Source: Acidimicrobiales bacterium
Lineage (GTDB): Bacteria; Actinomycetota; Acidimicrobiia; Acidimicrobiales; SKKL01
Direction: 5' to 3'
Length of the DNA: 64,000 nt
Assembly (NCBI GenBank): GCA_034521975.1
Contig: JAXHLR010000004.1
Span: 1 to 64,000, forward strand
The translations under genes were made by a program, and so were the position numbers. The notes below the pieces were generated by a model. That model made no database searches and was not told the origin of the DNA. It saw only the letters and a list, made by a program, of their open reading frames with translations. Below are positions 51,311-55,643 of the stretch, piece by piece; within the stretch, counting starts at the first letter, position 1, and each line of letters begins with the position of its first letter.

Positions 51311-52495
51311 ATGATCGCGTTCACCTTCCCAGGGCAAGGCTCGCAACGACCGGGCATGGGCCAGCCGTGGGTCGACCACGAGTCGTGGGAGCTGGTCGCC
51401 GAGGCCAGCGAGCACGCCGGGAGCGACCTCGAGGCGCTGCTGCTCACCGCCGACGCCGACGAGCTCGTCTCCACCCGCAACGCCCAGCTCGCCACCTTCG
51501 TGCTGAGCCTGGTGACCCTCGACGCCATCGAGCGCACCGGCGTCGAACCGGCCCGAGCCGCCGGTCACAGCCTCGGCGAGTACACCGCCCTCGTCGCCTC
51601 GGGGGCGCTGGCCTTCGACGACGGGGTGCGCCTGGTCAGCGAGCGGGGTGCAGCCATGCTCACCGCCGCCGAGGACCGCACCGGCTCGATGGCCGCAGTG
51701 CTCGGGCTCGACGACGACAAGGTCGAGGTGGCCTGCGAGGCGACCGACGGCGAGGTGTGGGTCGCCAACTACAACGCCCCCGGCCAGGTCGTGATCGCCG
51801 GCGATCCCGCCGCCATCGACGCCGCCGGCGTTGCGGCCAAGGAGCTGGGCGCGAAGCGGGTCATGGCGTTCCCGGTCGGCGGGGCGTTCCACACCCCGTT
51901 CATGGCTCCCGCCCGCGACCGCCTGACCAAGGCGCTCGCCGGCATCGAGTGGCGCTCCCCCGCCATCCCGGTCCACGCCAACGTCGACGCCGACGCCCAC
52001 ACCGATGCCACCCCCTGGCCCGATCTCCTGGCGGCCCAGCTCACCAGCCCCGTCCGGTGGCGCCAGATCCTCCACCACTTCGACGAAGCCGGAGTGAACA
52101 CGGTGGTCGAGGTCGGTCCCGGTTCGGTGCTCACCGGCATGGCCAAGCGCACCCTCAAGGGCGCCCGCACCGTGTCGGTCTCCACCCCCGACGACCTCGA
52201 CTCGTTGCTCGAGGCCCTGGCCGCCACCCCTGCGGCCACCCACGCCGACACCGGACACCACGACGGCGAGCACCTGTTCGCCACCGAACGCCTGGTGGTC
52301 AGCCCTGCCGCCGGGGTCTTCACCCCCGAACCGGGGCTCGACGCCGGCACGACCATCGCCGCCGGCCACCTGCTCGGCCAGGTGGGTTCGGAACAAGTCC
52401 GCTCAGCATTTGGAGGTTCGCTCATGGGATGGCTCGCAGTCGACGGTGAACGGGTGGCCACCAGCCAGCCCATCGCCTGGTTGAGGACGGTCTGA
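51311..52495 (+). CDS. fabD: Malonyl-CoA:ACP transacylase with C-terminal barrel-sandwich-like extension
   Basis: FabD moves malonyl from CoA to acyl carrier protein. FPGQGSQRPGMG is at the N-terminus, the nucleophilic Ser 87 lies in AAGHSLGEYTALV, and the catalytic His is in VGGAFHTPFMAPA. The 394-residue length exceeds the usual 300-320. The last 75 or so residues (VVSPAAGVFTPEPGL, AAGHLLGQVGSEQVRS, GGSLMGWLAVDGERV) look like a biotin/lipoyl-type barrel-sandwich fold without the modifiable Lys. It leads fabD-fabH-fabG-acpP-fabF, a full elongation core; the fabH start abuts its stop directly. Confidence 0.9.
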   Translation: MIAFTFPGQGSQRPGMGQPWVDHESWELVAEASEHAGSDLEALLLTADADELVSTRNAQLATFVLSLVTLDAIERTGVEPARAAGHSLGEYTALVASGALAFDDGVRLVSERGAAMLTAAEDRTGSMAAVLGLDDDKVEVACEATDGEVWVANYNAPGQVVIAGDPAAIDAAGVAAKELGAKRVMAFPVGGAFHTPFMAPARDRLTKALAGIEWRSPAIPVHANVDADAHTDATPWPDLLAAQLTSPVRWRQILHHFDEAGVNTVVEVGPGSVLTGMAKRTLKGARTVSVSTPDDLDSLLEALAATPAATHADTGHHDGEHLFATERLVVSPAAGVFTPEPGLDAGTTIAAGHLLGQVGSEQVRSAFGGSLMGWLAVDGERVATSQPIAWLRTV

Positions 52496-53422
52496 GTGCG
52501 CGGCGCAACGATCCGCAGCTGGGGCACCGCGCTGCCCGCGAAGGTCGTCACCAACCACGACCTCGAAGCCACCCTCGACACCAGCGACGAGTGGATCGTC
52601 GACCGCACCGGCATCCATGAACGTCACGTCGGCGGCACCACCAGCGGTCTGGCCATCGAGGCCGGTCGCCTCGCCCTCGACCGGGCGGGTTGGGCCCCCG
52701 AGAGCGTCGACCTGCTCATCCTCGCCACCACCAGCCCCGACCAGCAGGTGCCGGCGACCGCATCCACCGTCCAGCACGAGCTCGGGCTCTCCTGCGGCGC
52801 GTTCGACCTCAACGCCGCCTGCTCCGGCTTCGTCTACGGCCTCGTGGCCGCCCACGGGTTCATCGACGCGGGCATGTCCCGGGTCCTGCTCATCGGCTCC
52901 GAGACGCTGTCACGCATCACCGACTGGGACGACCGGGGCACCGCCATCCTCTTCGCCGACGGAGCCGGCGGGGTCACCCTCGAGGCCGTCGACGGGCCCG
53001 GCGAGCTGCTCGGGTGGGACCTGGGTTCGGACGGCTCGGCCCGCCACATCCTCGACGCCGACATCGGCGGCTACCTCGAGATGGACGGGCGCGAGGTCTT
53101 CCGCCGGGCGGTACGGGTCATGGTGCAGTCCGGCAACGAGGCGCTCGCCCGCGCCGGGGTCGGCGCCGACGACATCGCCCTGGTGGTCCCCCACCAGGCC
53201 AACATCCGCATCATCGAGTCGGCCTGCGCCAAGCTCGGATTCCCGATGGAACAGGTCGTCACCGTGCTCGAGCACACCGGCAACACGTCCTCCGCGTCCA
53301 TCCCGCTCGCGCTGGCCGACGCCGCCGACCAGGACCGGCTGCATCCCGGCGACCTGGTGATGCTGGTCGGGTTCGGTGCCGGCATGACCTGGGCCTCGGC
53401 CATCATCCGGTGGGAGCCATGA
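52496..53422 (+). CDS. fabH: 3-oxoacyl-ACP synthase III
   Basis: KAS III starts fatty-acid chains by condensing acyl-CoA with malonyl-ACP. The catalytic triad is visible: Cys 109 in DLNAACSGFVYG, His in LVVPHQANIRII (near 238) and Asn in EHTGNTSSASIPLAL (near 268). At 308 residues it is slightly shorter than the usual 320-330. The GTG start is immediately after the fabD stop. Its own stop overlaps the fabG ATG by four bases, so fabD, fabH and fabG are translated as a coupled unit. Confidence 0.93.
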   Translation: MRGATIRSWGTALPAKVVTNHDLEATLDTSDEWIVDRTGIHERHVGGTTSGLAIEAGRLALDRAGWAPESVDLLILATTSPDQQVPATASTVQHELGLSCGAFDLNAACSGFVYGLVAAHGFIDAGMSRVLLIGSETLSRITDWDDRGTAILFADGAGGVTLEAVDGPGELLGWDLGSDGSARHILDADIGGYLEMDGREVFRRAVRVMVQSGNEALARAGVGADDIALVVPHQANIRIIESACAKLGFPMEQVVTVLEHTGNTSSASIPLALADAADQDRLHPGDLVMLVGFGAGMTWASAIIRWEP

Positions 53423-54138
53423 CCAGCCCCGGCGGGCGCGTCGTGCTGATCACCGGCGGCAACCGGGGCATCGGTCTGGCCACCGCCGAGGCGTTCGCCG
53501 ACGCCGGCCACCGCGTGGCGGTCACCTACCGGTCCTCGCCACCCGACGACGACCGCTTGCTGTGCGTCCCCTGCGACGTGTCCGACTCCCAACAGGTCGA
53601 CGACGCCTTCGCCAAGGTCGAGGCCGAGCTGGGCCCGGTCGAGGTCCTCGTCGCCAACGCCGGGTTCAATCGCGACGGGCTGGTGCTGCGGATGTCCGAC
53701 GACGACTTCACCGAGGTCCTCGACACCAACCTCACCGGCGCGTTCCGCGCCGCCCGCCGCGCCGTCAAGTCGATGATGCGCAACCGCTGGGGACGCATCG
53801 TGATGCTCTCGTCGATCGTGGGCACCGCGGGTCAAGCCGGACAGGCCAACTACGCAGCCTCCAAGGCGGGGCTGGTCGGCCTGGCCCGGTCGCTCGCCCG
53901 CGAGTTCGCGTCCCGCAACATCACGGTCAACGTGGTGGCACCGGGCCCCATCAGCACCGACATGACCGAGGCGCTCACCGACGACCAGCGCTCGGCCCTG
54001 TCCGATGCCGTTCCCTTGGCCCGCTTCGGCACCCCCGCCGAGGTCGCGGCCACGATCCGCTTCCTCGCCTCCGACGACGCCGGGTACATCACCGGAGCGG
54101 TGATCCCCGTCGACGGTGGATTGGGCATGGGAAGCTGA
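53419..54138 (+). CDS. fabG: 3-oxoacyl-ACP reductase
   Basis: A 239-residue short-chain dehydrogenase. The NADPH loop TGGNRGIGLA is at residues 13-22, the active-site Ser lies in VMLSSIVGTAGQ, and Tyr and Lys are in NYAASKAGLVGL. ITVNVVAPGPISTDM and YITGAVIPVDGGLGM are typical FabG features. It reduces 3-oxoacyl-ACP in each elongation round. The start is set by the ATGA overlap with fabH. About 85 bases follow before acpP. Confidence 0.93.
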   Translation: MTSPGGRVVLITGGNRGIGLATAEAFADAGHRVAVTYRSSPPDDDRLLCVPCDVSDSQQVDDAFAKVEAELGPVEVLVANAGFNRDGLVLRMSDDDFTEVLDTNLTGAFRAARRAVKSMMRNRWGRIVMLSSIVGTAGQAGQANYAASKAGLVGLARSLAREFASRNITVNVVAPGPISTDMTEALTDDQRSALSDAVPLARFGTPAEVAATIRFLASDDAGYITGAVIPVDGGLGMGS

Positions 54139-54222: not shown

Positions 54223-54462
54223 GTGAGCGACGCCGAGAACTTCGAGAAGTTCAAGCAGTGCGCAGTCGAGGTCCTGGCGGTCGAGGCCGACCAGGTCACC
54301 CGTGAAGCACGCTTCGCCGATGACCTCGACGCCGACAGCCTCGACCTGGTCGAGCTGGTCATGCGCCTCGAGGAAGAGTTCGATGTCAGCGTCGACGAGG
54401 AAGAGCTCGAAGGCATCGAGACCGTCGGCGCCGCCTACAACCTGATCGTCGCCAAGCTCTGA
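54223..54462 (+). CDS. acpP: Acyl carrier protein
   Basis: A 79-residue acidic four-helix carrier. The phosphopantetheine attachment Ser 39 lies in DLDADSLDLVELVM, the canonical motif. GTG start with a GAGCAGC region upstream. The last base of its TGA is the first base of the fabF ATG (TGATG). Sits in the expected place between fabG and fabF and carries the growing chain for all enzymes of the cluster. Confidence 0.95.
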   Translation: MSDAENFEKFKQCAVEVLAVEADQVTREARFADDLDADSLDLVELVMRLEEEFDVSVDEEELEGIETVGAAYNLIVAKL

Positions 54463-55643
54463 TGCCACGTCGTCGCGTCGCTGTCACCGGAGTCGGCGTC
54501 GTCGCGCCGTGCGGCATCGGTCGCGACGACTACTGGCAGGGCCTGCTCACCGCTCCGCCCGAGGGCCGCGAGCGCCACGTCGAACCGTGGGACCCAACCC
54601 CCTGGTTCGAGAACCGCAAGGAGGCCCGCCGGACCGACCGCTTCACCCAGTTCGCCATCGCCGCGGCCGACATGGCCCTCGAGCAGGCGGGCCGGATCAC
54701 CGCCGACCCGGTCCGGTCCGGCGTCCACATCGGCACCGGCATCGGTGGTGTGTCCACCCTCGAGGACCAGATCATCGCCGGCCACACCAAGGGGCTCGAC
54801 CGCGTCTCGCCGTTCATGGTGCCGATGATGATGCCCAACGCGGCGTCGGCGACGGTGTCGATGCGCTACGGCTGGCAAGGTCCCTGCGAGACCACCGTCA
54901 CCGCCTGCGCCGCCGGCACCCACAGCATCGGCAACGCCGCCCGGCTCATCATGGACAACCGGTGCGACGCAGTGCTCGCCGGTGGTTCCGAGGCCCCGTT
55001 GACGGCGACCTCGATCGCCGGCTTCACCAACATGACCGCCCTGTCCCGCACCGGCCACTCGCGTCCGTTCGACCAGCGGCGCGACGGCTTCGTCATCGCC
55101 GAAGCCGGCGCGGTGCTCGTGCTCGAGGAGTGGGACATGGCCGTCGAGCGAGGAGCCACGATCCTGGCCGAGATCCTCGGTTCGGCCTCCACCGCCGACG
55201 CCCACCACATCACCGCTCCCGCCCCGGGCGGAACCGGTGCGGTGAACTGCATGGAGCTGGCCCTGGCCGACGCCGGCCTGGCGCCCGGCGACATCGTCCA
55301 CATCAACGCCCACGGCACGTCGACACCCTTGAACGATGCCGCCGAAGCCGACGCCATCCACAAGCTGTTCGGTGCGCCCGGTCCCCTGGTCACCAGCACC
55401 AAGGGCGTCACCGGCCATGCCCTGGGTGCCGCCGGCGCCATCGAAGCCGTGGCCGTGGTGCTGTCCATGGCGCTCCGCCAGCTGCCGCCCACCATCGGCC
55501 ACGAGGAGCCCGACCCCGACATGGCCCCGCTCAACCTGGTGACCGGCGATGCCCTCAGCTGGGAACCGGGGCCGTCGCTGTCGAACTCGTTCGGGTTCGG
55601 TGGGCACAACGGCACGCTCGTGCTCGGCCCCCCGCCCGGCTGA
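54462..55643 (+). CDS. fabF: 3-oxoacyl-ACP synthase II
   Basis: KAS II elongates acyl-ACP with malonyl-ACP. The catalytic Cys 149 lies in TVTACAAGTHSIGNA, and the two His in HINAHGTSTPLND and VTGHALGAAG. GFVIAEAGAVLVLEE and SNSFGFGGHNGTLV complete the thiolase fold. At 393 residues it is slightly short. One-base overlap with acpP. It ends six bases from the convergent ogt stop. Confidence 0.95.
   Translation: MPRRRVAVTGVGVVAPCGIGRDDYWQGLLTAPPEGRERHVEPWDPTPWFENRKEARRTDRFTQFAIAAADMALEQAGRITADPVRSGVHIGTGIGGVSTLEDQIIAGHTKGLDRVSPFMVPMMMPNAASATVSMRYGWQGPCETTVTACAAGTHSIGNAARLIMDNRCDAVLAGGSEAPLTATSIAGFTNMTALSRTGHSRPFDQRRDGFVIAEAGAVLVLEEWDMAVERGATILAEILGSASTADAHHITAPAPGGTGAVNCMELALADAGLAPGDIVHINAHGTSTPLNDAAEADAIHKLFGAPGPLVTSTKGVTGHALGAAGAIEAVAVVLSMALRQLPPTIGHEEPDPDMAPLNLVTGDALSWEPGPSLSNSFGFGGHNGTLVLGPPPG

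Follow-up and report, generated by a model that had tools for sequence, protein, structure and literature searches.

The FabD protein (malonyl-CoA:ACP transacylase) encoded in a 64,000-nucleotide stretch of an Acidimicrobiales genome, referred to below as the window, ends in a barrel-sandwich domain of the biotinyl/lipoyl type from which the attachment lysine is missing. Elsewhere in the phylum, many families encode the same domain as a separate gene of about 90 to 120 amino acids, located directly between fabD and fabH. By analogy with a plant protein described below, we read it, with a probability of roughly 0.4, as a non-biotinylated carrier mimic that would bind a subunit of acetyl-CoA carboxylase and thereby tether or regulate this enzyme at FabD. 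In the following sections we provide the evidence for the fold, the missing lysine and the genomic context of the domain, and weigh the mimic against the other roles that could be assigned to it.

The window encodes a FabD with an additional C-terminal domain

The protein is the product of an ATG-start open reading frame of 394 amino acids on the forward strand (positions 51311-52495), the first gene of a FAS-II operon with the order fabD, fabH, fabG, acpP and fabF. The four downstream genes lie on the same strand and were named from their sequences: fabH (52496-53422) directly follows fabD in the list of open reading frames and served as our FabH reference, fabG (53419-54138) overlaps the end of fabH, acpP (54223-54462) has a GTG start and a translation of 79 amino acids, and fabF (54462-55643) is the final gene of the operon in the window.

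The catalytic part of the protein comprises residues 1-290 (51311-52180). Residues 1-282 match the fabD model TIGR00128 with 277.6 bits against a cut-off of 260.9 bits, and Ser87 (within GHSLGE) and His194, which we take to be the catalytic residues of FabD, are invariant across 76 aligned rows. Comparison of this part with E. coli FabD (1mla) by Foldseek gave a TMt of 0.93, indicating the FabD fold. By cut-off, fold and active-site serine and histidine, the window protein is thus a FabD as far as this can be computed, and malonyl transfer is its predicted activity. While it has these features in common with the TIGR00128 family, it differs by the extra C-terminal domain, which lies outside the family model.

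The extension is predicted to fold as a biotinyl-type domain

The original prediction, made from the sequence of the window, was that about 75 residues beyond the normal end of FabD form a biotin/lipoyl barrel-sandwich domain without the modified lysine. Such an extension is indeed present, both in the window, where it makes up the last ~78 residues of the protein (about 317-394; 52259-52492, forward strand), and in close homologues, and its assignment to the unmodified biotinyl/lipoyl-like type is borne out by alignments (A1, A4 and A6), profile matches, the AlphaFold fold and fold matches in the PDB. For the full protein, modeled from 76 of the 78 available rows (the window and 77 others; alignment A5), AlphaFold gave a mean pLDDT of 92.4, with six strands within residues 326-392 and a preceding linker at residues 307-320 (52229-52270, forward strand) that is disordered (pLDDT <50). 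The extension modeled by itself from 70 rows (A6) is a confident six-strand barrel with a pLDDT of 93.9.

The best structural matches of this predicted barrel-sandwich fold are biotinyl domains. A Foldseek comparison of the extension with the PDB placed the biotin carriers of E. coli and Pyrococcus at the top, with chains of the efflux adaptor BesA interspersed. The top match by VIA-align was E. coli BCCP complexed with biotin carboxylase (4hr7_G; Z 11.3, rmsd 1.1, 67 aligned), followed by 1bdo (Z 11.2), Arabidopsis BCCP1 (9a87; Z 11.0) and BesA (10.5); since rows within 1 count as tied, BesA included, carriers and efflux adaptors are inseparable by fold alone. The sequence profile, on the other hand, does separate them: among the PDB matches of profile A4, the transcarboxylase biotin carrier scored 4.6e-14 and E. 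coli BCCP about 2e-9 to 1e-8, compared to 1e-5 or weaker for efflux adaptors. In a Pfam search the window's own extension gave no matches, and PF00364 (Biotin_lipoyl) matched 24 of the 42 homologous extensions in alignment A1 at E<=0.1 and 27 of the 39 members of the broader alignment A4 at E<=0.01. All family models that matched in these scans were generic carrier or adaptor models. Overall, the profile comparisons indicate that the extension descends from the same ancestor as the biotinyl domains.

The consensus of the 42 A1 extensions reads xGEHLxxxERLVVSPAAGVFxP...GxxVxxGxxLGxVGxxEVRSPFxGxLMGxLAxxGERVxxxQPxAWLR, and a chance glycine-rich sequence is ruled out by the conservation of the domain among relatives, described below, together with the predicted fold. 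A translation artefact or frame shift is likewise ruled out: when the contigs of relatives were scanned with two fused-form peptide patterns, FabD and the domain formed one full-length open reading frame in 77 of the 80 loci obtained, which represent the best 80 among 353 relatives. The exceptions are two loci without the N-terminal part (L112 and L145) and one with only a short match (L138). One relative (G031, contigs C50 and C78) has, in addition to a fused FabD, a second FabD match that reads past a TGA in the same frame into the domain.

As an alternative to the biotin carriers, the search results also brought up the YqeB-type lineage of unmodified domains (TIGR03309), which serves in the maturation of selenium-dependent molybdenum hydroxylases. 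The domain of the window matches TIGR03309 at E 2.1e-4, as do 12 of the 39 A4 members at E<=0.01, and two weak matches that we read as YqeB (L205 and L208) share the absence of the carrier lysine and the short hairpin. However, the window scores 20.9 bits against a TIGR03309 cut-off of 220 bits, far enough below for membership to be rejected. The family profile strongly matches biotin carriers, the separate forms keep the hairpin length of carriers, and the neighbors of the domain are fatty-acid genes, a different pathway from that of YqeB. We therefore consider it very unlikely that the domain belongs to this lineage.

The attachment lysine is absent throughout the family

When 193 unique domain sequences were aligned by profile, the column that holds the attachment lysine of carriers contains lysine in all 4 canonical carriers and in none of the 189 family members, where it is occupied by a gap (121), glycine (42), serine (8) or other residues (18). 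The predicted absence of the modified lysine therefore extends to the whole family, with the correction that in the fused form the entire carrier hairpin is shortened as well. This shortening amounts to about four to five residues in the fused form of the window and is shared by the fused forms of its order, while the hairpin of separate forms is mostly at carrier length. In the window, the alignment columns place the shortened hairpin, VGSEQ, at residues 358-362 (52382-52396, forward strand), where carriers have their modified lysine, and the model has strands at residues 354-358 and 361-364.

We do not claim the domain as a member of the biotin or lipoyl carriers, as it has their fold and lacks their defining lysine. 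With the biotinyl domain of BCCP/AccB and AccA3 (PF00364) it has in common the fold, the profile similarity and, for the separate forms, mostly the hairpin length; it differs in the missing attachment lysine, in the shortened hairpin of the fused form and in its location beside or on FabD. The carrier fold by itself might be taken to mean that a group is still carried, either on a different residue or on a lysine modified elsewhere. Yet with the column empty of lysine in 189 of 189 members, any lysine within about four positions of it in only 6 of 189, and the hairpin shortened in 121 of 189, we reject a still-modified carrier as extremely improbable.

The domain is conserved and widespread in the phylum

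Over 116 fused open reading frames, mean identity to the window is 62.5% for the extension and 63.4% for the catalytic part. The extension is under constraint and is conserved as much as the catalytic part. Far from being missing in close homologues, the domain is present in 49 of the 59 nearest genomes at E<=1e-9. Of the ten among these 59 without it (G004, G011, G022, G025, G036, G040, G045, G048, G049 and G057), six gave no FabD match at all; the FabD matches of G011, G036 and G045 were confined to long frames (about 1,000 to 2,440 residues), and G048 had a FabD-like match. Within the window's order, families f20 and f23 include several genomes without the domain: G022 and G025 also lack a FabD match, whereas in genus g64 of f23 FabD is matched (E about 1e-53 to 1e-62) and the domain is missing.

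In a sample of the phylum, at least 64 of 396 genomes had a domain match at E<1e-15, which is a lower bound because some members, L241-L243 among them, have E values of only about 1e-12. This threshold, and that of 1e-10 used for the census of loci below, were set after canonical carriers had been seen to start near 1e-13 with A4. FabD was detected at E<=1e-30 in 63 of the 64 domain-bearing genomes, and in the exception (G553) the FabD gene is truncated by the end of a contig (L196). At the same E value, FabD was detected in 336 of the 396 genomes, many of them without a clear domain copy, which implies that the function of the domain is dispensable in general. The window's own genome contains one strong copy.

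The domain occurs both fused to FabD and as a separate gene

Among the relatives of the window, several loci (L032-L034, L037-L039 and L049) have the domain as its own open reading frame immediately after fabD, an arrangement also seen in most of the loci that represent other families of the class and phylum. We took a census of the 193 unique domain sequences (E<1e-10) from the fetched loci, in which 128 are fused to FabD, a count inflated by the many loci obtained with full FabD or the fused-form alignment as query, and 49, from loci hand-picked among strong and weak matches, are separate with fabD directly upstream. Another 6 have fabH downstream and no fabD recognized upstream on the same strand (in one of these, L244, a FabD gene adjoins the domain gene on the opposite strand), 2 have a carboxyltransferase (CT) gene directly downstream, 2 are canonical sequences in or next to biotin carboxylase, and 6 have other contexts. 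In nearly all listed loci fabH starts 3-355 bp after the domain gene; at L180 the domain is present with no recognized fabH downstream.

To follow the two states, we used a quick FabD tree of 100 rows, thinned from 171 sequences by shared 4-mers, with rows shorter than 240 amino acids or with a partial FabD match left out and with SH-aLRT as its only support values. The tree contains three changes between the fused and the separate state, at least two of which are forced by well-supported branches, so fusion or fission must have occurred more than once. Confinement of the extension to one lineage thus stands for the most part where the fusion is concerned, as it occurs mostly in one lineage with a few independent cases, and fails for the domain itself, which as a separate gene is spread widely across the phylum.

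At least two switches between the fused and separate states on the FabD tree, together with a flexible linker that keeps the domain near the catalytic part, would also fit a purely local role, in which the domain is an appendage for the stability, solubility or substrate gating of FabD and has no outside partner. However, the domain is a separate gene in many lineages, twice adjoining a CT gene, and some loci keep it without an upstream FabD, so that we regard a local role as unlikely.

Several copies lie outside the usual context. In the genus of the window, G001 has, besides its FabD fusion, a second, stand-alone copy of 102 amino acids (G001:C234, equivalent to L031:4259-4567 and also seen as L237) that is located away from all genes in the fab reference set. 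Two other members of the class have stand-alone copies (L181:6088-6402 and L182:6025-6507) on the strand opposite to their neighbors, which we read by eye as efp, nusB and pyrR-pyrB-pyrC. In some other bacteria efp and nusB flank accB-accC, and these copies could be the relic of a BCCP gene. A more distant copy (L246:5873-6250, also L213) lies between genes that by eye resemble a DegT-type aminotransferase and a sulfotransferase, a context in which some partners of the domain could lie outside lipid synthesis.

Gene neighborhood favors a link to FAS-II entry and to a carboxyltransferase subunit

We next consider the genes that surround the domain. Its commonest fixed neighbors are fabD and fabH rather than carboxylase genes. 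Among loci with at least 1 kb of sequence beyond fabF, a CT gene was present in the first 1 kb past fabF at 24 of 37 separate-form loci, 6 of 6 loci without recognized upstream fabD and 1 of 19 fused loci; the remaining 13 separate-form and 18 fused loci had no CT gene there. In two further loci a CT gene comes immediately after the domain gene, at a distance of 92 bp (L167) and 43 bp (L199), and no gene of the fab reference set was found in their surroundings. The carboxylase genes of the window's genome are elsewhere, with three biotin-carboxylase and five carboxyltransferase matches. On contig C5 of this genome (G000), around position 440,600 (L221:4900-5400), a biotin carboxylase frame stops short of the biotin-carrier part. 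That part, with a normal EAMKM motif, is encoded onward in a different frame, which reflects either an assembly error or a real frame shift.

The linkage to CT genes may be simply an old actinobacterial gene order. To our knowledge, the fasII operon of M. tuberculosis contains no domain of this kind. A passage of PMC4014462 places accD6 after kasB in that operon, an arrangement without reference to the domain, and the CT linkage is consequently suggestive rather than proof. The loci that lack a CT gene past fabF, the distant carboxylase genes of the window's genome, the constancy of fabD and fabH as neighbors and the many FabD-bearing genomes with no clear domain copy also count against a carboxylase partner. 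Altogether, the gene neighborhood favors a link of the domain to both FAS-II entry and a CT subunit, which agrees with, without proving, the originally suggested docking of acetyl-CoA carboxylase or ACP.

The main rival of the carrier mimic is a scaffold for FabD, FabH and ACP, wherein the domain would bind FabH, FabD or holo-ACP instead of a carboxylase and malonyl-ACP would be handed from FabD to FabH. The constant order fabD-domain-fabH, represented by 49 unique separate sequences with fabD upstream, favors such a scaffold, as does the retention of the domain beside fabH in the six loci without a recognized upstream fabD and its retention in the 13 separate-form loci (of 37) where fabF is not followed by a CT gene. 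A scaffold does not account as readily for L167 and L199, which adjoin a CT gene with no fab reference gene around, for L180, where no downstream fabH was recognized, or for the homology of the domain, which is to a part of the carboxylase and not to a known partner of ACP or ketosynthase. We hold a FAS-II scaffold to be possible, if somewhat doubtful. The six loci that have fabH and a CT gene but no recognized upstream fabD also argue against a partner that is strictly specific to FabD.

A candidate non-biotinylated carrier mimic in fatty acid synthesis

The fold, the homology to biotinyl domains and the uniform loss of the lysine are established, and it is the docking partner that we infer. 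If the domain is a carrier mimic, a BCCP-like ancestor would have lost its attachment lysine and been retained as a binding module, keeping the binding surface of a carrier while losing the cargo. Within acetyl-CoA carboxylase, the mimic might bind the biotin carboxylase (BC), the CT or the genuine biotin carrier. Placed on FabD, it would either draw the malonyl transferase close to the carboxylase or keep the latter in check, and in this way the supply of malonyl-CoA would be coupled to the formation of malonyl-ACP.

Noncatalytic subunits of carboxylases have precedents. The AccE epsilon subunit, a small protein not known to be related to the domain, is the noncatalytic "glue" subunit of some bacterial acyl-CoA carboxylases, and the domain could have an analogous role, though the two are likened by description only. 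A passage of PMC11926652 mentions a glue subunit of this kind for some bacterial acyl-CoA carboxylases. The same paper describes the plant BADC proteins as BCCP-like, without the AMKL motif and not biotinylated, calls them unique to the plant enzyme, and gives their role as either glue for the BC-BCCP subcomplex or inhibitor (PMC11926652). The domain would resemble BADC, which we use as its working analogue, in that both are BCCP-like barrel-sandwich domains without a biotinylation motif and both are tied to fatty acid synthesis. In contrast to BADC, the domain is bacterial and is located in a FAS-II operon or fused to FabD, and the likeness comes from fold and motif loss, not from a comparison of the sequences.

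Extending this analogy, it is conceivable, though we propose it with considerable reserve, that a counterpart of BADC exists in several actinomycetotal lineages, as a dedicated carrier mimic which, encoded between fabD and fabH or fused to FabD, physically couples acetyl-CoA carboxylase to FAS-II entry and so controls or channels malonyl-CoA. A search of the literature for a link of FabD to biotinyl domains or to Acidimicrobiia found neither a FabD fusion nor an operon gene of this type described. If the carrier mimic is the right reading, there would be a direct physical link in bacteria between the committed step, malonyl-CoA synthesis, and the use of its product in FAS-II, as well as a small bacterial system for settling whether BADC-like proteins act on acetyl-CoA carboxylase as glue or as inhibitors. 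Whatever its partner, this conserved and as yet unnamed gene, which many actinobacterial families have in their core fatty-acid operon, deserves annotation.
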